Positions 1,077-12,423 of a stretch of 32,204 nt of DNA are shown here, one piece after another; position 1 is the first letter of the stretch, and each line of letters opens with the position of its first letter. The notes beneath the pieces are model-generated. The model searched no databases and was not told where the DNA came from. It saw only the letters and a list, made by a program, of their open reading frames with translations. A program made the position numbers and the translations under genes. The stretch is from a virus. Location: positions 1 through 32,204 of the IMG/VR virus record IMGVR_UViG_3300009703_003284. One strand, given 5' to 3'.

Positions 1077-1889
1077 ATGGGTAAAATTGGATTAGGTATT
1101 ATTACGTGTAATCGTGAAGATTTTTATAAGCAATGTTTAGATAGCATACCTACAGATGTGGTTGATGTATTAGTTACTATTAATGATGGAAAACCGTATG
1201 AAGGTGTATACGACAGCCATGAATATATACAACATGAAAAAAATAAAGGTGTAGGTGTCACTAAAAACCAGGCAATGAAATATCTTTTAGATAATGATTG
1301 CGAACATGTATTTTTAATTGAAGATGATATTATTATAAAAGACAAAAACGTTTTCAAAAAATATATCGATACGGCTAAAGCGTCTGGTGTATGGCATATG
1401 ATGTTCGGTTACCACGGACCTGCAAACAAAACACCAGACAAAAAACCAAATCCAAAATTAGTCGTCGACTATGGTGAGCATAAAATCGCTTTTAATCATA
1501 ATTGCGTAGGAGCGTTTTGCTATTACCATAAAGGTATTTTGAAAAATGCTGGTCTAATGGACGAAGCATATAAGAATGCGTGGGAGCATGTAGCACATTC
1601 ATATGATATTGTACGTTTAGGATTGTTACCGGCTTACTGGTGGTGGCCAGACGTAGCTAACAGCTATGAATATCTAGATGAGTTAGCGTGTAGCGAAGAA
1701 AATTCATCTATAAGATGGGAAGATAATACAAAGAGAATCGCTAAATCAGATTGGCAAGAGAACATTTCCAAAGGTGCAGAGCATTTCTATAAAAAGTATA
1801 ATCAATTACCAACAAGTATTCCAGATACTCCAATTGATACTATACAAGAGCGTCTTAAAGTAATAAAGAAGAACTATGCACGACTTTAA
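1077..1889 (+). CDS. GT-A fold glycosyltransferase (GT2-like)
   Basis: 270-residue protein with a nucleotide-sugar-binding Rossmann-like start (LGIITCNRE), the INDG segment typical of GT2-type enzymes, and an acidic metal-binding motif in LIEDDIII (EDD at 82-84) in the place of DxD. The KNKGVGVTKNQAM segment (56-68) before it matches the usual 'N.G...A.N.' part of GT2 domains. There is no signal peptide or membrane segment, so it is a cytoplasmic transferase. Donor and acceptor cannot be read from the sequence. It is the first gene of the sugar operon, directly behind a leaderless-type promoter, and overlaps the next gene by 14 nt, indicating co-translation. Confidence 0.8.
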   Translation: MGKIGLGIITCNREDFYKQCLDSIPTDVVDVLVTINDGKPYEGVYDSHEYIQHEKNKGVGVTKNQAMKYLLDNDCEHVFLIEDDIIIKDKNVFKKYIDTAKASGVWHMMFGYHGPANKTPDKKPNPKLVVDYGEHKIAFNHNCVGAFCYYHKGILKNAGLMDEAYKNAWEHVAHSYDIVRLGLLPAYWWWPDVANSYEYLDELACSEENSSIRWEDNTKRIAKSDWQENISKGAEHFYKKYNQLPTSIPDTPIDTIQERLKVIKKNYARL

Positions 1890-2697
1890 GGATATAAGCA
1901 TCTTAATTCATGTACAGATTGATGTACAGGATCGCATCGATAATCTTACCGGTGTAATGGATTACTATTATAATAATTGTGAGAATGTTCAATTTGTTAT
2001 CGTAAATGATGATGCCGAGCCGGATAATAGATTGAAGGATCTATATGCTAAATATGGTGATACAAGCAAATTCCTTTTCCAAAAAAACGCTGACATGTAT
2101 CACCGTACCAAAGCTTTCAACCAAGCTTCAACAAATACAGATAGAGATTTTTTAATTGCAGGCGACACCGACGTCATTGTACACCCTACACATTTATTAT
2201 CCTGTGTTGAAATGATGCGTGATGATGAAAATATTGGTGCAATGTATCCATATAATGGACTATTCATACATGTAAGCGATAAGCATAAACAAACAATTTT
2301 AGAAACACATAATATAGATTTTTTAGATCAATATATACCTGACAAAGAACATCAAATACCAAATTATGAAAATGATGATATATTAGTTGCTCATCATCAG
2401 AGTCAAGGTGGGTGCAATATGTTTAGACATAAGCATTGGAAAACATTTAATGGTTATAATCCAGGTTTTATTGGCTGGGGATCAGAAGATAATGAAATAA
2501 ATCACCGCGTTCAAGTTATGGGATTTTTATTTGAACGCTATATGAACCCTACAGCTATTGCTTGGCATTTACCGCATCATAATACAGTAAGAGATAAAGA
2601 ACCATATTGTAGTAGAAATGATAGACTATGTAATGCAATTTCAACAATAAGAACAAAAACAGAAATGGAGAAATATATATCAACATGGAAGCTCTAG
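1876..2697 (+). CDS. GT2/GT7-like glycosyltransferase (galactosyltransferase-type)
   Basis: 273-residue GT-A enzyme. It has a VNDDAEPD donor-site segment (43-50), a DTD metal-binding motif (97-99) and a C-terminal acceptor-site signature G-G-x-x-M-F-R (178-184) with GWGSED (200-205). Together these are typical of the GT7 C-terminal domain found in beta-1,4-galactosyl/GalNAc transferases and chondroitin-polymerase-like proteins. A late His-rich segment (HLPHH, near 226-230) may bind metal. It starts inside the end of the previous gene and overlaps the following epimerase by 13 nt. The fold is secure; the sugar transferred is not known. Confidence 0.82.
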   Translation: MHDFKDISILIHVQIDVQDRIDNLTGVMDYYYNNCENVQFVIVNDDAEPDNRLKDLYAKYGDTSKFLFQKNADMYHRTKAFNQASTNTDRDFLIAGDTDVIVHPTHLLSCVEMMRDDENIGAMYPYNGLFIHVSDKHKQTILETHNIDFLDQYIPDKEHQIPNYENDDILVAHHQSQGGCNMFRHKHWKTFNGYNPGFIGWGSEDNEINHRVQVMGFLFERYMNPTAIAWHLPHHNTVRDKEPYCSRNDRLCNAISTIRTKTEMEKYISTWKL

Positions 2698-3605
2698 TAA
2701 CAGGCGGTGCTGGGTTTATAGGTAGTAATTTAGTTGACGAATTACTTCGATTAGGTTGGAATGTAGCTGTTGTTGACAGTGAAGCTTCAGAATCTAATGA
2801 ACAGTTCTTTTGGAATCAAAAAGCTGAAAATTACAAGTATGACATTACAGATTACAGGGGATTAAATTCTGTATTTGAACGTCATAATTTCGATTATGTA
2901 TTTCACTTAGCTGCAGAGTCGAGAATACAGCCTGCAATTGAAAATCCAATACGATGTACTAACGTTAATGTAACGGGTACTTGCAATGTATTACAATGTG
3001 CTCGTGAGCATAATGTAAAACGAGTTATGCATTCATCGACGTCATCAGCATACGGCTTGACTGAAATATCACCTCAGACTGAAGATTTACCAGTAGATTG
3101 TCTTAATCCATATTCCGTTACAAAAGTAGCAGGTGAGTCGTTATGTAAAATGTACTATGATTTATTCGGTGTTGAAACAGTTATATTTAGATATTTCAAT
3201 GTATATGGTTACCGTCAACCAACGAAAGGTGCATATGCACCAGTAGTTGGTCTTTTCTTAAAGCAATTTAAGGAGGGTAAGTCAATGACGGTTGTAGGAG
3301 ATGGTGAACAAAGAAGAGACTATACAAGCGTTAACGATGTTGTACAAGCAAATATAAAAGCAGCACTTACAGAAAATAAAGGCGCCTTAGGTAATATTAT
3401 TAATGTAGGTACAGGTATTAATCATAGCGTATTAGAACTCGCGAAAATAATTGGTGGTGAGATCGAATTTATTCCTGCAAGAAAAGGTGAAGCTAAAGTT
3501 ACTCTAGCTGATAATACAAGAGCAAGAGAATATCTCGGATGGAACCCTACAGGTAGTTTAGAACAATATATAACCGAACAATTAAATGATAACATCAAGA
3601 CTTAA
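2685..3605 (+). CDS. NAD-dependent sugar-nucleotide epimerase/dehydratase (GalE-like)
   Basis: 306-residue extended SDR. NAD-binding TGGAGFIGS at 6-14, the FHLAAES segment (73-79), a Ser/Thr-rich catalytic segment SSTSSAYG (117-124), the Tyr/Lys pair Y143-x3-K147 (YSVTK), and RYFNVYG further on, all typical of UDP-glucose 4-epimerase and UDP-glucuronate epimerase-type enzymes. The length fits the short bacterial WbpP/GalE-like group. It probably supplies a UDP-hexose for the neighbouring transferases, but substrate choice (Glc/Gal, GlcNAc/GalNAc, GlcA/GalA) cannot be read. It overlaps both neighbours. Confidence 0.88.
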   Translation: MEALVTGGAGFIGSNLVDELLRLGWNVAVVDSEASESNEQFFWNQKAENYKYDITDYRGLNSVFERHNFDYVFHLAAESRIQPAIENPIRCTNVNVTGTCNVLQCAREHNVKRVMHSSTSSAYGLTEISPQTEDLPVDCLNPYSVTKVAGESLCKMYYDLFGVETVIFRYFNVYGYRQPTKGAYAPVVGLFLKQFKEGKSMTVVGDGEQRRDYTSVNDVVQANIKAALTENKGALGNIINVGTGINHSVLELAKIIGGEIEFIPARKGEAKVTLADNTRAREYLGWNPTGSLEQYITEQLNDNIKT

Positions 3606-4419
3606 AGGCGGACTAGGTAATCAAATGTTTCAAATAGCTGCTGCGTATGGGACAGCTAAGTTACATAACACTGATATGGCAATTGATCTGTCTATTAAAC
3701 ATCATAGCGGACAAGGTCACCCACATAAAAAGTATGATGATAATTTATATAAATATATTCCTAGATTTGAGTTCAAAAATACGGAGTATGATATGTATAA
3801 TGAGCCTAATTTTAGTTATGATGCTATACCTAAGCCTATTGATGGTCGCCATATGATACTAGATGGCTATTTTCAAACCGAAAAATACTTTGAGCATTGC
3901 AAAGAAGGCATTAAAACTTTATTTCATATACCTGACGATATAAAGCAAGGCGTTAAAGAGAAACTAGATAAAATTAAAAATCATTTTAATAGAGATAAAG
4001 CGGTTTGTATACATGTTCGTCGAGGTGAGTATCTAAAATTACCCAATATTCATCCTGTACAGACAAAAGATTTCTTTGTAGATGCAATGTCCCAGTTTGA
4101 TTATTCATCTGTCGTATACGTTGTTATATCTGATGATATTGATTGGTGCGTAGAGAATATTAATTATTATAAGACAGCGTTTTGTAACACGGGGTATTCC
4201 TATGATACAGAGCCTGTAACAGACGATCTAAACGAATTATTTGATATGTATTTAGCAAGTCAATGCGACGGCAATATTATTTCAAATAGTAGCTTTGGTT
4301 GGTGGGGAGCATGGCTCAATACAACGGATAATAAAGTTATTGCTCCAAGTAAATGGTTTGGCCCTGATGGCCCACAAGATCACGGAGATGTATATGCACG
4401 GGAATGGATTAAACGTTAA
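3586..4419 (+). CDS. GT11 alpha-1,2-fucosyltransferase-like enzyme
   Basis: 277 residues, full length for bacterial GT11. It starts with the family signature GGLGNQMFQ (8-16), carries the donor-binding HVRRGEY (143-149) and ends with SNSSFGWWGAWL (233-244), all diagnostic of alpha-1,2-fucosyltransferases. The classical reaction moves L-fucose from GDP-L-fucose to a galactose 2-OH. Because this island also encodes a GDP-mannose 3,5-epimerase but no visible GDP-fucose pathway (no Gmd/Fcl pair), GDP-L-galactose is a plausible alternative donor; that is inference. It overlaps the upstream epimerase by 20 nt. Confidence 0.93.
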   Translation: MITSRLKGGLGNQMFQIAAAYGTAKLHNTDMAIDLSIKHHSGQGHPHKKYDDNLYKYIPRFEFKNTEYDMYNEPNFSYDAIPKPIDGRHMILDGYFQTEKYFEHCKEGIKTLFHIPDDIKQGVKEKLDKIKNHFNRDKAVCIHVRRGEYLKLPNIHPVQTKDFFVDAMSQFDYSSVVYVVISDDIDWCVENINYYKTAFCNTGYSYDTEPVTDDLNELFDMYLASQCDGNIISNSSFGWWGAWLNTTDNKVIAPSKWFGPDGPQDHGDVYAREWIKR

Positions 4420-4672
4420 AGCTGGTGAACGATATAAATGTAGGAACCCTAAGGGGTGTGATACATTTGTAAAATCACCAATGGTTGTATGCACGGGATG
4501 TGGATACATACAAACAGCAAAAGCAAGAAAGATAGATAAGGAGCTTACAGAGAAATTACGATCAGGAAAATATGAAAGCAGCAATACTAAAGCACTTAGA
4601 CGAGCCGCTAGAACTGATAACAACGGATATCCCCCAGGACCTTTATATCGGACAGGTTACGGTTCAAATTAA
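4394..4672 (+). CDS. small zinc-ribbon protein of unknown function
   Basis: A frame of about 92 residues with a C-x(5)-C ... C-x2-CG knuckle (KC-RNPKG-C, then CTGCG), followed by a basic region. The four cysteines look like a zinc ribbon. It fills the gap between the GT11 gene and the dehydrogenase, overlapping the former by 26 nt and running about 100 nt into the latter in another frame. ATG codons at 4388 and 4394 are both possible starts; an upstream in-frame ATG at 4295 would lie deep inside the GT11 gene and is unlikely. The coding case rests on the Cys pattern and on the gap it fills. The function is unknown. Confidence 0.5.
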   Translation: MHGNGLNVKAGERYKCRNPKGCDTFVKSPMVVCTGCGYIQTAKARKIDKELTEKLRSGKYESSNTKALRRAARTDNNGYPPGPLYRTGYGSN

Positions 4673-5573
4673 AGTAGCGGGTATTTGCGGTGCACAGCTA
4701 TTAGAGATTGGTGGCCATAAAGGTAATGGCAAATTTTTACCTCATATGATGGGTCATGAAGGTGGCGGTATCGTCGAAGCCATTGGGCCCGGTGTCACTA
4801 AAGTTAAGCCAGGTGACAGAGTAGTTATGCATTGGAGACCTGGTAGTGGAATAGAAGCACCTTTTGTGAAGTATGGTGATGTTGGTGCAGGTAAAGTAAC
4901 GACGTTTAGCGAAAAGGCTGTTGTATCAGAGAATCGATTAACACCAGTCAAAGATGCAGTACCATTTGAACTGTGCTCACTATTAGGTTGCGGTATTACT
5001 ACTGCATTTGGTGTTATTAACAATGATGCTAAAGTAAAAATGGGCGAAAGTGTGCTCGTTTTAGGGTGTGGAGGTGTAGGTCTTTCTATAATTAAGGGTG
5101 CATCGCTAGTCGGTGCAGCTCCTGTTACGGGATATGATATTTCTGATAAGAGAGACTTATCTGTACGCCATGGAGCTGATATTTTTCATACAAATTGGGA
5201 GTCGATTTCTGATAGTAATGATGTTATAATAGATACAGTTGGACATCCTGAATTATTTGCAAAAGCTATTAAAAAATTAGGCCCATCTGGTAGATATATT
5301 ATGGTTGGTCAACCAAAACCAGGTACAGATATATCAATTACTGATGCATATAATATGTTTGCAGGTACAGGTAAGACAATAATGGCAACACAAGGCGGCC
5401 AAACTAATCCTGATACGGATATACCGCGATATATTAGCATGTTTTTGAATGGTCGCTTTGATTATAGGGAGCTTATAACACATAGATATAAATTAGAAGA
5501 TGTCAACGAAGCGATTGATGTAGTTAGAAGAGGAAACGCAGGGAGAGTTTTATTAAACATTAACGATGAGTGA
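4572..5573 (+). CDS. zinc-type medium-chain dehydrogenase (MDR/alcohol dehydrogenase family)
   Basis: 333-residue MDR protein. Catalytic-zinc candidates are C39 (AGICGAQ), H62-E63 (GHEGGG) and C140 (LLGCG). The NAD(P) Rossmann motif is GCGGVG (165-170), followed by YDIS with an Asp that favours NAD. The lobe that carries the four structural-zinc cysteines in classical ADHs is present in length but lacks those cysteines, so only the catalytic zinc is expected. It lies directly before the two transketolase halves (8-nt overlap), which suggests oxidation or reduction of a sugar or polyol made or used by them. Substrate unknown. Confidence 0.85.
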   Translation: MKAAILKHLDEPLELITTDIPQDLYIGQVTVQIKVAGICGAQLLEIGGHKGNGKFLPHMMGHEGGGIVEAIGPGVTKVKPGDRVVMHWRPGSGIEAPFVKYGDVGAGKVTTFSEKAVVSENRLTPVKDAVPFELCSLLGCGITTAFGVINNDAKVKMGESVLVLGCGGVGLSIIKGASLVGAAPVTGYDISDKRDLSVRHGADIFHTNWESISDSNDVIIDTVGHPELFAKAIKKLGPSGRYIMVGQPKPGTDISITDAYNMFAGTGKTIMATQGGQTNPDTDIPRYISMFLNGRFDYRELITHRYKLEDVNEAIDVVRRGNAGRVLLNINDE

Positions 5574-6300
5574 ATTAAACGAGAGATCTAAACAAGTTAG
5601 ACGTGATACTATTACACTTTCTAAAGCAAATGGTGGATATCATTATGGTGGTACATTTTCATGCACCGAAATTTTAATTAATTTATATGATCATGTACTT
5701 CAACCAGCAGATAGATTCATTTTAAGTAAAGGACACGCGTGTTGGTCGTATTATGTGTTGTTGCGTGAACGTGGATACGACCCTCCCTTAGAGGGACACC
5801 CTCACCGTGATGTACATAACGGGGTACATTGGACAACTGGAAGTGAAGGCCACGGTCTACCTGCAGGTTTAGGTATGGCTTGGGCAATGAAACGCAGCGG
5901 ATCACCAGGTAGAGTATTTGTATTAATGGGAGACGGTGAATGCCAAGAAGGTACAACATGGGAATCCTTATTAACAGGGGCACATCAAGGACTAGATAAC
6001 GTCGTTGCCATTGTTGATAATAATAAAATTCAAGGCTCAGGGTTTGTCAACGATATTTTACCTGTGAGCGCGTTAAAAGACTCGGCGGCATCTATTGGTT
6101 GGTACGTTACTGATGTAGATGGTCACGATAATGATGCGCTTGTCACTGCCTTGACACATGAATCTTTCAATAAACCTCACTTAATAATCGCAGACACGAT
6201 TAAAGGTAAGGGTGTTAGTTATATGGAAGGTCAACCTAAGTGGCACGCCAATTGGCCAGACCCAGAACACGAAGCAAAAGCTTTGGAGGAATTACAATGA
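5566..6300 (+). CDS. transketolase-like N-terminal (ThDP-binding, PP) subunit
   Basis: 244 residues corresponding to the pyrophosphate-binding half of split transketolases. The thiamine diphosphate/Mg motif GDG (122-124) to NN (152-153) is intact, as are SKGHA (54-58), SEGHG (93-97) and IKGKGVSYME (212-221). A separate gene encodes the pyrimidine-binding half with a 4-nt ATGA overlap, so the two form a heteromeric enzyme. The usual reaction transfers a two-carbon ketol unit between sugars. In a glycan cluster such pairs can make branched-chain or chain-altered sugars. This is an accessory sugar-building enzyme rather than a pentose-phosphate housekeeping gene, judging by context. Confidence 0.88.
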   Translation: MSELNERSKQVRRDTITLSKANGGYHYGGTFSCTEILINLYDHVLQPADRFILSKGHACWSYYVLLRERGYDPPLEGHPHRDVHNGVHWTTGSEGHGLPAGLGMAWAMKRSGSPGRVFVLMGDGECQEGTTWESLLTGAHQGLDNVVAIVDNNKIQGSGFVNDILPVSALKDSAASIGWYVTDVDGHDNDALVTALTHESFNKPHLIIADTIKGKGVSYMEGQPKWHANWPDPEHEAKALEELQ

Positions 6301-6779
6301 GACGAGCATTTGGTAAAACAATAGTTAAATTAGCGGAAAAGGATCCTAATATTATTCTTATCTCTGGAGATGTTGAGCAAGAAATGGATGAATATAAAGA
6401 TCGCTGGCCTGATAGGTATATTAATGCAGGATTATGCGAACAGACAATGATTAGTATGGCGGCAGGCATGGCAGCAGAGGGTCTCAGGCCAGTTGTTTAC
6501 TCTATAACACCATTTTTGATTGAAAGACCTTTCGAACAAATTAAAATAGACATTGACGAGCAATGTTTGCCTGTTATGTTAGTAGGTAACTCTGACTATC
6601 CCACTCATGGACCTACTCATAGACCGTTAAATGCTGAAGGATTGGTAGGTCTATTCAAAAATATAATGGGATATTTTCCGAGAAATTTATTTGAAACTGA
6701 AAAAGCTATGCTTGACGCATACTTAATGAAGAAGCCATCAATTATTTGTATTAAAAAAGAAGGTCTGCCATTTATATAA
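6297..6779 (+). CDS. transketolase-like pyrimidine-binding subunit, lacking the C-terminal domain
   Basis: 160 residues starting MRRAFGKT. It has the Pyr-domain hallmarks GLCEQTMISMAAGMA (45-59) with the catalytic glutamate E48 that activates ThDP, and THGPTH (103-108) with active-site histidines. Split transketolase C-subunits are normally around 300 residues because they carry a third domain; here the protein stops right after the Pyr domain (KPSIICIKKEGLPFI). The start is set by the ATGA overlap with the PP subunit and a GGAGG ribosome-binding site; in-frame codons upstream would give a longer, unconserved start. The missing domain is not needed for ThDP chemistry in some relatives. Confidence 0.85.
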   Translation: MRRAFGKTIVKLAEKDPNIILISGDVEQEMDEYKDRWPDRYINAGLCEQTMISMAAGMAAEGLRPVVYSITPFLIERPFEQIKIDIDEQCLPVMLVGNSDYPTHGPTHRPLNAEGLVGLFKNIMGYFPRNLFETEKAMLDAYLMKKPSIICIKKEGLPFI

Positions 6780-7459
6780 TGAGTAAAGTCGCGCTAATAA
6801 CAGGATCTAGTAGAGGTCTCGGTGAACAGTTAGCATATAAGCTAGCTGAGCGCGGTTATAAGCTCTATATACACGGTAGAGATGAAAAGAATCTCGCGAT
6901 ACTACGTCAGAAAATCAAATCAACATACAATGTGTATTGCGAATACATCGTAGCTGATCTAAAAACTAAAACTGGCGTTGAAGTTATTAAGCAATATTTT
7001 ACAAAACCTATAAGCGTGTACATTAACAATGCAGGTATATATCAACATGGCGATATAATTGACATGTCTGACGACGAAATTGTCGATGTTGTTAATGTAA
7101 ATATGCTTCATCCTATATTAATAACAAAGCACGCATATAAAACTTTTAAGAAGAATAATAAAGGTACTATTATTAACATTAATTCCGTTGCAGGTAAAAC
7201 GGGAAACCCTAACGAGTCAATTTATTGTGCATCAAAATTTGGTCTAAGAGGCTTTACATCATCATTGCAAATGACTTGCGCACCAGTAAAGGTTATTGAT
7301 GTGTATCCAGCCGGTATTAAAACAGATATGACAAAGCATAGAGATGATCATAATAATTTTATTGACCCAGATGAAGCGGCTGATGTTATTTGCTCGTCAT
7401 CTTTAGACTATACAACATTTAGGCCAGCAGAATTAGAATTAAGAAGGATGAAATACTAA
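6779..7459 (+). CDS. classical short-chain dehydrogenase/reductase
   Basis: 226-residue SDR. Cofactor motif TGSSRGLG (8-15), NNAG (83-86), catalytic S136 (INSVAG) and Y149-x3-K153 (YCASK), then the PAGIKTDM segment. HGRDEK near 32-37 has an Arg after the second strand, which often goes with NADP(H). It overlaps the transketolase subunit (TAATG) and the next gene (TAATG), so it is firmly inside the operon. It probably reduces a keto-sugar or sugar nucleotide, perhaps the product of the transketolase pair; this is inferred from position only. Confidence 0.88.
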   Translation: MSKVALITGSSRGLGEQLAYKLAERGYKLYIHGRDEKNLAILRQKIKSTYNVYCEYIVADLKTKTGVEVIKQYFTKPISVYINNAGIYQHGDIIDMSDDEIVDVVNVNMLHPILITKHAYKTFKKNNKGTIININSVAGKTGNPNESIYCASKFGLRGFTSSLQMTCAPVKVIDVYPAGIKTDMTKHRDDHNNFIDPDEAADVICSSSLDYTTFRPAELELRRMKY

Positions 7460-8184
7460 TGAGAGAGGAAATAATCTTTAGTCAACCATGGGGAGGTCTT
7501 GGAGACAACTTACAGTTTTCAACTTTACCTAGATTGTATCATCAAGCCGGTTACGATTTTTATATTAGCAATCAAAATACATTGCGTAATTCTGAAATAT
7601 TTAACATGGTTTGGGAAAGTAACCCATATGTAAAAGGTGTATCTGATGAGCCACCGAATGCTGGTTACCCGGCACATCCAGCTGATAGAGGCGATTTTAA
7701 GGAATATAATATTATAACAGCGTGGGAAAAATCTCACGGCTTTGAAGATGGTCGCCCATTCAAAACACCTGAGCTGTATCACATACCGGAAATTGTAGAG
7801 TCAGTTAGAGGCAAAACAATTATTGAGCTAGGCGCAGTATGCCTTGAAGGTAAATATGATATGCAAAAAGTAGCGGAATATATTGATAAGAACTACAAAG
7901 ACGACTATCCGCTATTAATTTCAAGAAAAGACAACCCTAGATTGCATAATACATTTGGTGCTAAGGTAGTTGATCACGTTATAGAGTATGACAAGTATCA
8001 AGATTATCTTAATATATTAAGTTCTTGTAGAAATTTAGTGTGCTTATTTAGCGGTACCGCTGCAGTAGCGTCCGCGCTAGACCCGCATGATATGATTGAT
8101 AAAAAATGTTTATATCACAGAAGTAATTTTGGTGATATGGGGTCAACATTTATATTTGAAAATTTTGAATTTATTGAGTTATGA
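7459..8184 (+). CDS. GT9-like (ADP-heptose transferase fold) glycosyltransferase candidate
   Basis: 241-residue protein beginning with WGGLGDNLQFSTLPRLY (11-27), the GGLGDxL loop typical of GT-B enzymes of the GT9/heptosyltransferase type. The C-terminal half has an SGTAAVASAL segment (198-207) in the position of the donor-binding 'sGtaaiA.al' of that group. It is shorter than standard heptosyltransferases (about 320-350), as is common in phage and marine versions. No membrane segment. It is likely a cytoplasmic glycosyltransferase; donor unknown. Confidence 0.68.
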   Translation: MREEIIFSQPWGGLGDNLQFSTLPRLYHQAGYDFYISNQNTLRNSEIFNMVWESNPYVKGVSDEPPNAGYPAHPADRGDFKEYNIITAWEKSHGFEDGRPFKTPELYHIPEIVESVRGKTIIELGAVCLEGKYDMQKVAEYIDKNYKDDYPLLISRKDNPRLHNTFGAKVVDHVIEYDKYQDYLNILSSCRNLVCLFSGTAAVASALDPHDMIDKKCLYHRSNFGDMGSTFIFENFEFIEL

Positions 8185-9014
8185 TTAATATAAACTTGTT
8201 TGATAAAAATTTCGTTCACTCTATAAGTGAAGATGGATTTGATACTTGCTCAGCTGGTAGAAAGCCTACAAAAGTAGAATGGGTACGTAACAATTTTATG
8301 TGGGAAGGTGTAACAGTCTTTACTGATTGGTTTTTCCCTGCAGATGTTGTTAATGAGGTAGAGACAACACATAAAGTAGCCTGGTTGGTTGAACCTAAAT
8401 CTATACATCCTTGGGCATATGAACAAATCGTCAATATAGAAGATAAGTTTGACCTAGTGTTAACACATGATGCGGATTTACTTAAAAGAGGTCCAAAGTA
8501 TAAACGGAGCGTTGTAGGGTCGTTAAGAGTACCTGATGATCAACAAAAGGTATATGATAAAAATAAGCGAGTATCTATAATAGCATCCGATAAGAATCAT
8601 ACCGAAGGTCATCAATTAAGGCATGAATTAATTAGAATATGCCCTCAATTAGATGCATGGGGATCTGGTTATAAAAAGTTTGACTCAAAGCTAGATCCGT
8701 TAAAAGATTATATGTTTTCAGTCGCAGTTATGAATAGTCGAGTTGACAACTATTTTACTGAAGTATTAACTGATTGCTTTGCAGTAGGTACAGTTCCAAT
8801 CTTTTGGGGTACGCCAAACATTGATGAGTTTTTTAATGCAGATGGTATTATTCAATTTGCAAATATCGAAGAATTTAGTAAAGTAAAATTGAGCGAAGAA
8901 GAGTATAATAATATGCTCCCTGCAGTACAGGATAATTTTGAGAGAGTTCAAAATTATAAATCGACAGACGATATAATCGCGCAAACATTAATAGATCATT
9001 TTAATATAACATGA
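8181..9014 (+). CDS. GT10-like fucosyltransferase family protein
   Basis: 277 residues. The C-terminal donor-binding signature of GT10 (alpha-1,3/1,4-fucosyltransferases) is clear from 177 to 218: YMFSVAVMNSRVDNYFTEVL, then TDCFAVGTVPIFWGTPNIDE; compare the family pattern FENS...YVTEKL.DA...G.VPV..G.PNI. The conserved E194 and the G-x-P-N-I loop (209-214) are present, while the family's Asn-Ser is kept as N185-S186. The N-terminal half (acceptor side) is divergent. As with the GT11 gene, GDP-L-fucose or GDP-L-galactose are the expected donors. Overlaps both neighbours by 4 nt. Confidence 0.78.
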   Translation: MININLFDKNFVHSISEDGFDTCSAGRKPTKVEWVRNNFMWEGVTVFTDWFFPADVVNEVETTHKVAWLVEPKSIHPWAYEQIVNIEDKFDLVLTHDADLLKRGPKYKRSVVGSLRVPDDQQKVYDKNKRVSIIASDKNHTEGHQLRHELIRICPQLDAWGSGYKKFDSKLDPLKDYMFSVAVMNSRVDNYFTEVLTDCFAVGTVPIFWGTPNIDEFFNADGIIQFANIEEFSKVKLSEEEYNNMLPAVQDNFERVQNYKSTDDIIAQTLIDHFNIT

Positions 9015-9844
9015 GTAAAATAGCAGTTTTAGGTTCAAGCGGTCAAATAGGTACATATTTAGTACAATATTTGAAGGGTAAAGGTCACGTAGTAGATGGT
9101 TACGATTGTGTACCAGGTGAAACAACAAATATGGTTTCTGATTTAAGACATACAACTCCTGATCTTTCAGAATATAGTTTTGTATATTTTCTCGCTTTCG
9201 ATGTAGGCGGTTCACGGTACCTTAAAACATATCAACATACACCCGCGTTTATGAACAATAATATGAGACTAATGGCAAATGTCTTTGATGAATTGCAACA
9301 TTCGAAAACGCCATTTATTTTTGCATCGAGTCAAATGGCGAGTATGTCATATTCTCCATATGGATTATTAAAACATATTGGTGAAGTGTATACCCGCGCA
9401 CTAAACGGGATGACAGTTAAGTTCTGGAATGTATATGGTATTGAGCATGATCTGGAAAAAGCTCATGTTATTACAGATTTTATTCTTAAGGCAAAAGCTG
9501 GTAAGATCGATATGATGACTGACGGGACTGAAGTAAGACAAATGCTATACGCTGAGGATTGCTGTGAATGCTTAGACATTTTATCTGAAAAGTATGATGA
9601 TATCGATAGAGATCAACAATTACATATTACAAATTTTGAATGGAATACTATTCTAGAGATTGCAGATCATATTGGTAGTCATTTTGATGATTGCGTCATT
9701 GAACCTGCTAAGTCGAAAGACGAAGTTCAAAAAGATGCTAGAAATGAACCAGACGATTATATATTAAATTTCTGGAAACCTAAGACATCGTTAAAAGATG
9801 GTATATCGGCGATTGTTGAATACTATAATGAACATCAAGCCTAA
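9011..9844 (+). CDS. NAD-dependent epimerase/dehydratase (extended SDR), divergent
   Basis: 277 residues. Nucleotide-binding GSSGQIG at 8-14, catalytic Y117-x3-K121 (YGLLK), a FWNVYG segment matching the 'R..N.YGP' position, and a MLYAEDCCECLDIL segment matching 'f.yV.D.a.a...a'. The LAFDVGGSRYL segment (61-71) replaces the usual 'LAA' loop and resembles that of GDP-mannose epimerase-type enzymes ('AADMGG'). It likely acts on a nucleotide sugar, but I cannot name the reaction. The 3' end overlaps the methyltransferase start by 17 nt. Confidence 0.78.
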   Translation: MSKIAVLGSSGQIGTYLVQYLKGKGHVVDGYDCVPGETTNMVSDLRHTTPDLSEYSFVYFLAFDVGGSRYLKTYQHTPAFMNNNMRLMANVFDELQHSKTPFIFASSQMASMSYSPYGLLKHIGEVYTRALNGMTVKFWNVYGIEHDLEKAHVITDFILKAKAGKIDMMTDGTEVRQMLYAEDCCECLDILSEKYDDIDRDQQLHITNFEWNTILEIADHIGSHFDDCVIEPAKSKDEVQKDARNEPDDYILNFWKPKTSLKDGISAIVEYYNEHQA

Positions 9845-10733
9845 AAATATTACAACTACCCTTTGTTGGCGGCGATCATTTTTTCGTACAATTAACCCCG
9901 ATGATATTAAACAGAAAGGTGACGTATATCAATTTGGTGTCTTTGATGGCAGTTCTATGAGAATAATCGCTCAGGAGCTTTGTAACTTGAATATTCCAAT
10001 AAACAATTTTTTTGGGTTCGATGTGTTCACTGGTATGCCCGAAGAGGAGGGCGAGGAATTAATGAACGAAGACTGGGCACCGGGTAATTTTAATCTAGTA
10101 AAGCACGGTAAACGTTTTGGTATAAAATCAGATAATGTAGACGATATTGTTCAAGAGATAGAAAAGAGTATTGAGAATATATTTTTTATAAATAATATGC
10201 CTATACCTAATGTACGTATATTTGCTGGATTAGTGCAGGAAACATTGACCGAAAACCTACTACAGCATTTTACTATAAAAGAAGCATCATATGTTGACGT
10301 TGACTTTGATTTGTATTCGTCGAGTAAATACGGTTTATCAGAACTTTTAAGACACAATATAATCACGCGCGACACTCTCGTTGGATATGACGACTGGGGA
10401 GGTAAGCCAGGGTATAATAAATTTGAAACTGGAGAGAGCCGCGCTCACCAAGAAGTTTTTGAAGCTAATAATATAAATACGAACTTAATTTTTCATACAG
10501 CTGCAGGTGAGGGTAGTTGCCAATCAAACTTAGTTAACAATGTTGTCGATGTGGATACGTATAGAACAAATGGTAAAATGGTCAAATTAGGTAATCCTGA
10601 TTGGAAATGGGGAGATGTAGAAGACATACAGGCTGTATGGGTTGTTGATTCGAAAAGAACCGTAAAGGTTACTCATATTGAATCGGATCTAAGAAACAGG
10701 CTCGGTGAGCGGTTAATGAAAAGTAGTAATTAA
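9828..10733 (+). CDS. TylF/MycF-like SAM-dependent O-methyltransferase
   Basis: 301 residues from the ATG at 9828, chosen because it overlaps the upstream stop by a normal amount; an upstream ATG at 9798 would add 10 poorly conserved residues. SAM-binding strand VYQFGVFDGSS (33-43), FGFDVFTGMPEE (62-73), then a metal-binding acidic segment VDVDFDLYSSS and GYDDWGG. This order (glycine-rich loop, F-FDSF-G-PE, DxD-LY, DDW) is that of the TylF/NovP/MycF sugar O-methyltransferases. It probably methylates a hydroxyl on the sugar made or transferred by this island. It is the last gene before an internal promoter. Confidence 0.75.
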   Translation: MNIKPKNITTTLCWRRSFFRTINPDDIKQKGDVYQFGVFDGSSMRIIAQELCNLNIPINNFFGFDVFTGMPEEEGEELMNEDWAPGNFNLVKHGKRFGIKSDNVDDIVQEIEKSIENIFFINNMPIPNVRIFAGLVQETLTENLLQHFTIKEASYVDVDFDLYSSSKYGLSELLRHNIITRDTLVGYDDWGGKPGYNKFETGESRAHQEVFEANNINTNLIFHTAAGEGSCQSNLVNNVVDVDTYRTNGKMVKLGNPDWKWGDVEDIQAVWVVDSKRTVKVTHIESDLRNRLGERLMKSSN

Positions 10734-10736
10734 TAG

Positions 10737-10764
10737 TTGCAATCACTTAAAGATATATTACAAT
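10737..10764 (+). promoter_or_regulatory. sigma70-like promoter giving a near-leaderless mRNA for the GDP-mannose epimerase gene
   Basis: TTGCAA at 10737-10742, a 16-bp spacer, TACAAT at 10759-10764, then 7 nt to the ATG at 10772. No Shine-Dalgarno sequence precedes the start. The 38-bp gap between genes is filled almost completely by the promoter. Confidence 0.6.
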
Positions 10765-10771
10765 ACTGTAT

Positions 10772-11818
10772 ATGAAGACAGCATTAGTTTGTGGAGCAGG
10801 TGGATTTATTGGTAATCATCTGGTGTCGCGTCTTAAAAAGGATGGCTACTGGGTCCGTGGTGTTGATCTAAAGGAACCCGAGTATGGTAAGACAGAGGCG
10901 GATGAGTTTATTTCAGGTAACGTAGCTGATTTACGCGTACATGACAATGTACGACGGGCGGTTCGTTTTGATGGCGAGCAAGGTAATTTCTATAATTCTG
11001 TACCAGATAGGTATCGTCAACCATTTGACGAAATTTATCAATTAGCTGCTGATATGGGCGGTGCCGGGTTTATTTTTACAGGCGAAAATGATGCTGATAT
11101 TATGCATAATTCTGTCTCTATTAACCTAAATGTTCTTGAAAGTGTTAAGGAATTAAATCAGGAAAAGGCTGAGAATAAAACAAAAATATTTTATAGTAGC
11201 AGTGCATGTATGTACCCTGAACATAATCAATTGGATCCTGATAATCCTAACTGTGCAGAGGACACTGCATATCCAGCTAACCCAGATAGTGAATATGGTT
11301 GGGAAAAATTGTTTAGTGAGAGATTGTATGCAGCTTATAGTCGCAACCATGACATACCTGTTCGTGTCGCAAGGTTTCATAATATTTTTGGCCCATTGGG
11401 TACATGGGATGGCGGTAGAGAAAAAGCTCCAGCTGCTATTTGTCGAAAAATTGCAAAATTAAATGAAAGCAATGAAATCGAAATATGGGGCGACGGCAAC
11501 CAAACAAGAAGTTTCTTGTATGTCGATGAGTGCGTCGAAGGTATTCGCAGACTTGTAGACTCCGATTTTCCTGGCCCCGTTAATATTGGCTCAGATGAAA
11601 TGGTAACGATTAACCAGCTGGTTGATTATGTAGCAGAAATTGCTGGAAAGCCTGTAACGAGAATGCATATTCCCGGGCCGTTAGGTGTTGCAGGTAGAAA
11701 CTCTGACAATAATCTAATACAAGAAAAGATTGGATGGGCTCCTAATTATCCGTTAAAAGACGGACTGGCTCATACATATAAATGGATACAAGAACAAGTT
11801 GATTCTCAGCAACAATAG
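10772..11818 (+). CDS. GDP-mannose 3,5-epimerase
   Basis: 348-residue extended SDR closely patterned on plant-type GDP-mannose 3',5'-epimerase (EC 5.1.3.18). NAD motif GAGGFIG (8-14); LAADMGGAGFI (91-101); SSSACMYPE with C146; Y175-GWE-K179; HNIFGPLGTWDGGREKAPAA (203-222) with K218; WGDGNQTRSFLYVDEC (239-254). C146 and K218 match the epimerisation acid/base pair and Y175/K179 the redox pair of the Arabidopsis enzyme. It would convert GDP-D-mannose to GDP-L-galactose (and possibly GDP-L-gulose). It stands behind its own leaderless promoter and close to a phosphomannomutase that feeds the same pathway. Confidence in the family is high. Confidence 0.9.
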   Translation: MKTALVCGAGGFIGNHLVSRLKKDGYWVRGVDLKEPEYGKTEADEFISGNVADLRVHDNVRRAVRFDGEQGNFYNSVPDRYRQPFDEIYQLAADMGGAGFIFTGENDADIMHNSVSINLNVLESVKELNQEKAENKTKIFYSSSACMYPEHNQLDPDNPNCAEDTAYPANPDSEYGWEKLFSERLYAAYSRNHDIPVRVARFHNIFGPLGTWDGGREKAPAAICRKIAKLNESNEIEIWGDGNQTRSFLYVDECVEGIRRLVDSDFPGPVNIGSDEMVTINQLVDYVAEIAGKPVTRMHIPGPLGVAGRNSDNNLIQEKIGWAPNYPLKDGLAHTYKWIQEQVDSQQQ

Positions 11819-11832: not shown

Positions 11833-12423
11833 ATGATTATTAACGATATTAGTCTTTACGACGGTAATATTATTCATGATAGGTTTGCCTACAAGTTCTT
11901 TCGCAATAAGACACTTCCTATAGGTAATATTCTCGCATTCCGTGCGCCCATGACAGTGGAAGCAGATGGTATGATTGACTTAGAAGATACTCTAAAGAAT
12001 GATTACATTTACAGCGAAGATGCAATTAATTTTGTATGGGAAATACCTGGATTGGACGCATTTGGAGCGGTCGCGTGGCAAAGACTATTTAATACACAAA
12101 TTGCTAATATATTAAGTACACAATATCTCAACGCTCCAATTGAAGTTGATGGCGACGACTTACTTGTACATAAAGAGTTTGAGCAGCATGGCATTATTCA
12201 ACCGAAAGGCAAATGTAGCGTTAGCATTACATACTCAAAAAATGGTGCCGCGTTAGGTCATACAGCTATTAATGTAACTGCTGGACGTAAAGCTCCTGCA
12301 TTCGCATATTCTACAAATTTGTCTGATGAGGATTGTGATAAGTTTATGAAAGAAGTAATTGACGTATTTTATCATATGAACGATGATATGTTTATTGCAA
12401 CTACTAAAATTATTATTAAGTGA
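11833..12423 (+). CDS. DUF366-like protein (biotin/lipoate-ligase-like fold suspected)
   Basis: 196 residues. From memory of the family, the order AFRAP...MIDLED (residues 35-51), then IYSEDAINFVWEIP (59-72), then QRLF (83-86) follows the DUF366 (COG2029) pattern 'AF.GPc.V....MVDLED...N..I.S..mlHFi.E.....QRLL', and the later SVSITY...HTAINV and AYSTNLSD segments also fit. DUF366 proteins are thought to be distant relatives of lipoate/biotin ligases but have no assigned role. Position between a GDP-sugar epimerase and a phosphomannomutase gives no clear hint. Its stop overlaps the next start (TGATG). Confidence 0.55.
   Translation: MIINDISLYDGNIIHDRFAYKFFRNKTLPIGNILAFRAPMTVEADGMIDLEDTLKNDYIYSEDAINFVWEIPGLDAFGAVAWQRLFNTQIANILSTQYLNAPIEVDGDDLLVHKEFEQHGIIQPKGKCSVSITYSKNGAALGHTAINVTAGRKAPAFAYSTNLSDEDCDKFMKEVIDVFYHMNDDMFIATTKIIIK

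Follow-up and report, generated by a model that had tools for sequence, protein, structure and literature searches.

A two-domain split transketolase in a marine virus glycan cluster and the exchangeable carboligase slot beside its dehydrogenase

Introduction

What can a transketolase (TK) do when it lacks its third domain, when its two other domains are encoded by separate genes, and when these genes are framed by two dehydrogenases in the glycan cluster of a virus? This question is raised by the IMG/VR record IMGVR_UViG_3300009703_003284, a marine virus record of 32,204 bases (the whole stretch analyzed here, hereafter termed the window), in which T4-like genes are present and the portal protein shares about 32% identity with cyanophage gp20. 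We will focus on four of its genes, which code for a medium-chain dehydrogenase/reductase (MDR), the pyrophosphate-binding (PP) and pyrimidine-binding (Pyr) subunits of the split TK, and a short-chain dehydrogenase/reductase (SDR). Judging from the sequences, we give an about even chance to the idea that the TK pair, the MDR and the SDR make an unusual branched or chain-altered sugar for glycans. The four genes are as follows.

4572..5573, + strand: MDR of the zinc alcohol dehydrogenase superfamily, 333 aa (Pfam ADH_N/ADH_zinc_N, PHROG 2640)
5566..6300, + strand: PP subunit of the split transketolase, 244 aa (Transketolase_N, GDGE...N motif)
6297..6779, + strand: Pyr subunit, 160 aa, without third domain (Transket_pyr only; catalytic Glu48; loop DYPTHGPTHR)
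6779..7459, + strand: SDR, 226 aa, proposed to reduce the keto group that is added (adh_short 2.3e-43)

All four genes are real and stand in this order within a glycan cluster, and gene calls and Pfam agree with the first-pass annotation, which had described a split transketolase between two dehydrogenases with overlapping starts and stops. The MDR end (5573) and the PP start (5566) overlap by 8 nt, the PP stop overlaps the Pyr start in an ATGA at 6297-6300, base 6779 is common to the Pyr stop and the SDR start, and base 7459 to the SDR stop and the start of the next gene. The start of Pyr is the ATG at 6297 and not the mechanically called GTG at 6240. The SDR translation contains the stretches TGSSRGLG and YCASK, which we take to be SDR motifs.

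A split transketolase without a third domain

The Pyr protein matches Transket_pyr alone (3.4e-20, residues 1-157 of 160 against positions 5-172 of 174 in the profile), which agrees with the earlier claim that this half ends right past the Pyr domain, and it stops where the linker toward the third domain (Transketolase_C, TKC) would begin. Its AlphaFold model (pLDDT 89.1) has the complete Pyr fold and matches DXS and split-TK chains along the whole length, with Foldseek TM values of 0.84-0.86. The PP protein (Transketolase_N, 1.3e-23) scores 83.9 bits against Transketolase_N vs. 25.8 against E1_dh (cut-off 22), so that it is clearly of the TK type and not of the E1_dh type. It had been described as a normal PP half, and this holds for its fold, which is ordinary (pLDDT 90.1), but less so for some loops, which are shorter than in the E. 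coli TK.

A profile search of the whole window record found no TKC, and none was found in 20 related viral records, which are fragments, while the control genomes were positive in 14 cases out of 14; on these grounds, we rejected the supply of the third domain in trans. The relatives were gathered by viral scans, which gave 41, 14 and 76 partly overlapping loci, and by a pattern-limited scan of cellular genomes, which gave 9. In 50 of 53 rows (66-100% identity, window copy included), the Pyr protein measures 158-164 aa, a constancy beyond what chance would give; the three other rows are less than 40% identical. When 72 Pyr domains were placed in a tree, from which rows more than 90% identical were dropped, the window copy fell inside a 54-member clade (SH-aLRT 100), of which 53 members measure 155-175 aa and none carries a TKC, as judged by length or, for the odd member L065, by Pfam. 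The latter is an archaeal protein of 331 aa, and its additional portion is a SIS_2 domain, not a TKC. This Pyr-SIS_2 isomerase fusion lies in a Pacearchaeota metagenome-assembled genome (L065:6000-6995), and its SIS part shares 48% identity with a SIS protein from a phage.

The first-pass annotation had itself named, as a threat to its reading, relatives that would carry the third domain. There are none among the closest 54, and more distant ones such as L126 do carry it. Since the short/long label requires 4 changes on the Pyr tree, the short form probably has more than one origin. Among 297 genomes from the family to which L062 belongs (Pelagibacteraceae), the short form was found in 9, at 207-272 bits and in frames of 163-180 aa, one of which is interrupted by a stop codon within the match; the long forms of the same genomes reach at most 127 bits and are clearly separate. 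The absence of the third domain is a family trait, not a truncation. It could be argued that the Pyr gene is decayed, truncated or an assembly error, for the split-TK Pyr chain of known structure is longer than the window Pyr, but this is hardly credible given a length fixed across many contigs, catalytic residues that are invariant and an odd clade member that is fused to a different domain. We rejected the truncation or pseudogene on account of the fixed length and the invariant residues.

A tblastn search of 50,697 phage records, with PP and Pyr as queries, returned only matches below 60% identity, mostly unannotated or bacterial-looking, and in PHROGs the PP protein had no match and the Pyr protein a single weak one. 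In the literature, covered for few subscription journals, we found no account of a phage transketolase without third domain, of this cassette or of the swap described below.

An exchangeable carboligase slot next to the MDR

In the MDR, positions C39, H62 and C140, which we take to be the catalytic zinc ligands, are invariant in 18/18 rows; this alignment and its two counterparts (A1-A3, with 24, 24 and 18 rows) hold picked representatives rather than every locus. The window MDR is 53% identical to the proteins of phages S-SM2 and P-TIM68. The MDR is near-constantly paired with a thiamine diphosphate (ThDP) enzyme, as was found in a scan made with the MDR only and thus blind to the ThDP enzyme, of which the 80 loci nearest to the query out of 268 were kept, so that shares are not population frequencies. 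A ThDP carboligase lies close downstream of the MDR in 51 of the 52 non-redundant loci from these best 80 of 268, and in the remaining one the contig ends. These 51 enzymes comprise 40 single-chain E1-type proteins, 7 E1alpha/E1beta pairs and 4 TK pairs. The E1-type protein is made of E1_dh and Transket_pyr in one chain, without TKC in 4/4 tested, and it keeps its GDG and PVAE motifs in all 71 unique sequences (388-419 aa); the 28 non-redundant E1-type loci have an MDR and a kinase in 28/28 cases each. The E1 beta chain has a TKC in the single one tested, L263.

TK-type and E1-type enzymes have been repeatedly exchanged in this one slot. In the MDR tree (95 rows), the ThDP type changes 14 times, against a shuffled mean of 35.8, and at least 10 changes (E1F label) are forced by well-supported branches. 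This is a quick tree with some long branches; rows more than 93% identical, two rows lacking a typed ThDP enzyme and partial open reading frames (ORFs) were dropped, and the window MDR is therefore outside it. The exchange can be followed at the DNA level in L020 and L201, which are colinear and 81% identical up to the end of MDRs that are themselves 91% identical. One then has a single E1-type gene of 1,200 bases and the other a 188-aa gene followed by PP and Pyr, and past the swap the identity is again 78% through the kinase, HldD, HldC, HAD and cupin genes. Similarly, the MDRs of L114 and L284 are 96% identical and their carboligases differ. A chimeric assembly is unlikely, since close copies of both arrangements exist in contigs from other samples. 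What is conserved, and widespread among viruses, is best viewed as an MDR joined by a ThDP carboligase, which may have one of three builds.

Residues that suggest a normal donor side and a changed acceptor side

The window PP keeps the GDGE...N motif plus H26, H57, H78 and H227, and the catalytic Glu is found in all 72 Pyr domains. In E. coli TktA numbering, H26, H66, D155, N185 and H261 are kept in 24/24 PP rows and H100 in 23/24, while in the Pyr clade E411 is retained in 54/54 rows and H473 and R358 in 53/54 each. The acceptor-site residues of the TK family are missing: neither D469, presumably the Asp by which aldose acceptors are recognized at their 2-hydroxyl, nor H461 occurs in any of the 54 Pyr rows, and the position of S385 falls in a gap in all of them, as does that of R91 in 24/24 PP rows. 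From these residues, the ketol donor side would be normal and the acceptor side altered. Part of PMC10787763 describes the engineering of D469, S385 and R520 (H461 and R358 being close by) to alter the acceptor, and of H100 for the donor. The PP and Pyr proteins are relatives of transketolase by both domains, and as the third domain and these acceptor residues are missing, we file them as a variant, the two-domain split TK.

Two other uses of the pair can be weighed here. The first is that of a central-metabolism auxiliary gene serving the phage through a pentose phosphate shunt, which is how viral tkt reads in viromes have been interpreted (in the portion of PMC4053976 considered here). We find this very improbable in view of the glycan-cluster setting, the loss of the acceptor and phosphate-end residues and the constant MDR neighbor, and the earlier claim that the genes do not serve central metabolism is supported. 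The second is that the same C2 transfer would be made onto a terminal aldehyde, as an octose-like chain extension and not a branching at a ketone. TK chemistry usually takes aldehydes, and the catalytic residues are intact. However, the Asp presumed to read the aldose 2-hydroxyl is lost in 54/54 rows and the oxidoreductase partner is near-constant, which makes this extension a rather improbable alternative to branching (variants of D469 are treated in part of PMC10787763).

The partners of the TK pair

Partner genes were counted around complete ORFs that had been made non-redundant at 95% and were flanked by at least 4 kb on either side, leaving out the E1-type rows of the MDR scan, and the score and length limits removed the most divergent short Pyr rows (<140 bits) and L065. 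In the resulting 41 short-Pyr loci, PP is close in 41, an MDR in 26, an SDR in 25, an HldA-like kinase in 21, c4 (a neighbor of about 270 aa) in 18, HldD in 10 and HldC in 9. The MDR, the SDR and the kinase are each found in 0/11 long-Pyr loci. The uninterrupted order MDR-PP-Pyr-SDR, which the first-pass annotation suggested seeking elsewhere, is present in L018, L057 and L058. Its idea of a four-gene module holds insofar as both dehydrogenases are found again with the pair in relatives, but it is too narrow, for the cassettes of relatives add a PfkB/HldA-like kinase, an HldC-like nucleotidyltransferase, an HldD-like epimerase, HAD and cupin.

The order in L057 is GmhA-like SIS, c4, HldA, MDR, PP, Pyr, SDR, HldC, HldD, and SIS is also present in L111 and L128. 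As a constant partner, SIS was rejected: it occurs in a minority of loci and is absent from 13 of the 14 viral records tested, which are fragments. The main rival to sugar branching is that the TK pair supplies sedoheptulose 7-phosphate, or a near analogue, to a route of the NDP-heptose type (SIS isomerase, HldA-like kinase, HldC-like nucleotidyltransferase, HldD-like epimerase), the MDR and SDR acting elsewhere on the sugar. The Pyr-SIS_2 fusion of L065, the L057 order, the SIS genes of L111 and L128 and the counts of HldA, HldC and HldD given above all speak for it. Nevertheless, we hold it to be unlikely, considering the scarcity of SIS, the occupation of the same slot by E1-type enzymes, whose usual substrates are 2-oxo acids, and the absence of the phosphate-end residues S385, H461 and R91, and considering also that the hosts make sedoheptulose 7-phosphate anyway. 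The ADP/GDP-heptose pathway (GmhA, HldA/HldE, HldC, HldD) does resemble the cassettes of relatives, which hold HldA-, HldC-, HldD- and sometimes GmhA-like genes, but a profile search of the window record, a fragment, found neither its HldA-type kinase (PfkB) nor its HldC-type nucleotidyltransferase (CTP_transf_like), 0/1 each. To our knowledge, the canonical heptose route has no MDR and no dedicated transketolase.

A radical SAM gene lies within 5 kb in 10 of the 15 short-Pyr loci without MDR vs. 0 of the 26 with MDR (L094 was scored as being without MDR solely because its MDR sits slightly past 5 kb). Radical SAM enzymes that oxidize sugars exist, and one reading is that this gene is a second route to the keto sugar. 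Such genes adjoin the MDR-less short-Pyr pairs of L120, L121, L122, L124, L128, L061, L110 and L095, and L120 also has reversed HldE-like genes and what we presume to be NeuB-like genes.

Other arrangements were met along the way. The glycan locus of a Pelagibacteraceae genome (L062:4223-8471) holds an MDR, an E1-alpha, an E1-beta-like chain and PP + Pyr together. Genes of GHMP-type kinases, which may be heptose kinases, occur at L111:9151-10095 (Pfam GHMP_kinases_N) and, by eye, at L112:11530-12477; each of these phages also has a PfkB-type kinase, which suggests two sugar pathways within one cluster. Finally, two phage megaproteins (L001:1478-3994 and L013:526-3942), composed of GT9-like, FkbM-like methyltransferase and SDR domains, adjoin MDR-PP-Pyr.

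Likeness to known systems

The best PDB sequence match for both the PP and Pyr profiles is the split TK of Carboxydothermus hydrogenoformans (6yak/6yaj), which likewise has PP and Pyr on separate chains and the same Pyr fold. It differs in that its C chain is made of Pyr (1-162) and TKC (164-312) (as given in part of PMC7661550), whereas the window chain ends after Pyr, so that the pairing of a PP chain with a Pyr-TKC chain is not what the window has. Moreover, its EDGxxHQ loop is retained and exceeds that of the window Pyr by three residues. The two short chains, Pyr and PP, of the sulfopyruvate decarboxylase ComDE also lack a third domain, but ComDE belongs to the decarboxylase family and not to the Transket_pyr family.

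In S-SM2 and P-TIM68, a "transketolase central region-containing protein" occupies the same slot by the MDR, likewise without third domain, in a cassette that runs from the MDR and the carboligase to kinase, epimerase and nucleotidyltransferase genes. It is a single chain of some 400 aa, whose PP half is of the E1_dh type and which resembles the window PP and Pyr only marginally, and the public annotations of both phages list this E1-type gene without interpretation. In P-TIM68, gp190 (L160:10017-11225) is annotated from 10080 with 381 aa, and its frame is open from 10017, which gives 402 aa, like its relatives. The "phosphoheptose isomerase" annotation of L159:18012-18323 (S-SM2) and L160:13505-13843 (P-TIM68) looks wrong, because no SIS domain was found in them and each has its match in the cassette's small HAD family (the S-SM2 gene also has a weak HAD-type match).

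An oxidoreductase beside a ThDP carboligase in a sugar pathway is what the window genes share with the systems of keto-sugar C2 branching. In the part of PMC12247030 considered here, this branching has experimental support for alphaKADH2, which is of the E1 type, and is only proposed for a split-gene TK with a dedicated oxidoreductase in miharamycin and amipurimycin biosynthesis. These TKs belong to Streptomyces secondary metabolism, their role is unproven, and we liken them to the window pair by their description in that source and not by sequence.

A proposed route to a branched sugar

The slot enzyme types match two of the ThDP families that have been linked to the branching of keto sugars by a C2 unit. 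The simplest scheme is one of MDR, ThDP enzyme and SDR. The PP and Pyr proteins would form a two-domain split ThDP carboligase of the transketolase type, likely PP2-Pyr2. The MDR would form a ketone by oxidizing a hydroxyl of a sugar, the TK pair would move a C2 ketol (hydroxyacetyl) unit onto this carbonyl, the SDR would reduce the newly added keto group and neighboring transferases would attach the product to the glycan; in relatives, the HldA-like kinase and the HldC-like nucleotidyltransferase would activate the sugar. The assembly, the donor, the acceptor, the order of the steps and the choice of branching over simple extension are what we infer from the genes and their residues.

Several observations weigh against this scheme. 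The SDR lies within 5 kb in just 25/41 TK loci and 8/28 E1-type loci, the Pyr-SIS fusion of L065 and the SIS, kinase and nucleotidyltransferase neighbors suit a ketose-phosphate or heptose route, and the window record, as a fragment, is without kinase and nucleotidyltransferase. In addition, the acceptor changes also occur in 18 more distant rows, mostly long forms, of which 1/18 keeps D469. Being common to these rows, they are not a mark of this module, and they look to predate the loss of the third domain and to be independent of it. The branching and heptose routes could also both be true, one after the other, with a heptose-type sugar being built, activated and then branched. It is possible, and we advance it tentatively, that the slot belongs to a sugar-branching cassette whose carboligase is exchangeable, of the TK type (hydroxyacetyl) or the E1 type (acetyl), with the third domain lost independently in each, so that lineages would change the C2 branch of their glycan by a one-gene swap.

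Surroundings of the cassette in the window

The other genes of the cluster are as follows.

1077..4419, + strand: upstream glycan block, with two ORFs resembling glycosyltransferases (putative, by look)
2685-3605, + strand: GalE/LegB-like epimerase, upstream
3586-4419, + strand: GT11 fucosyltransferase-like gene, upstream
7459..11818, + strand: downstream glycan genes, whole block
7459-8184, + strand: conserved ORF (GTx), which recurs in related cassettes
8181-9014, + strand: GT10-like gene, downstream
9011-9844, + strand: epimerase, downstream
9798-10733, + strand: TylF-like gene, downstream, with a match slightly under its cut-off
10772-11818, + strand: epimerase-like gene, downstream

A DUF366 protein (Pfam 1.5e-22; 11833-12423) closes the downstream side of the cluster.

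Implications

If the proposed route is true, the TK version of the cassette would provide natural ketone-accepting transketolases, an activity that has so far merely been proposed. The pair is a compact and well-conserved two-chain candidate, and the natural swaps, in which an almost identical MDR stands with one enzyme type or the other, open the question to direct testing. This also bears on the purpose of the TKC, as two ThDP lineages manage without it in one pathway slot. The cassette also suggests that the glycans of marine phages, or those of the surface of their hosts, contain an undescribed sugar.

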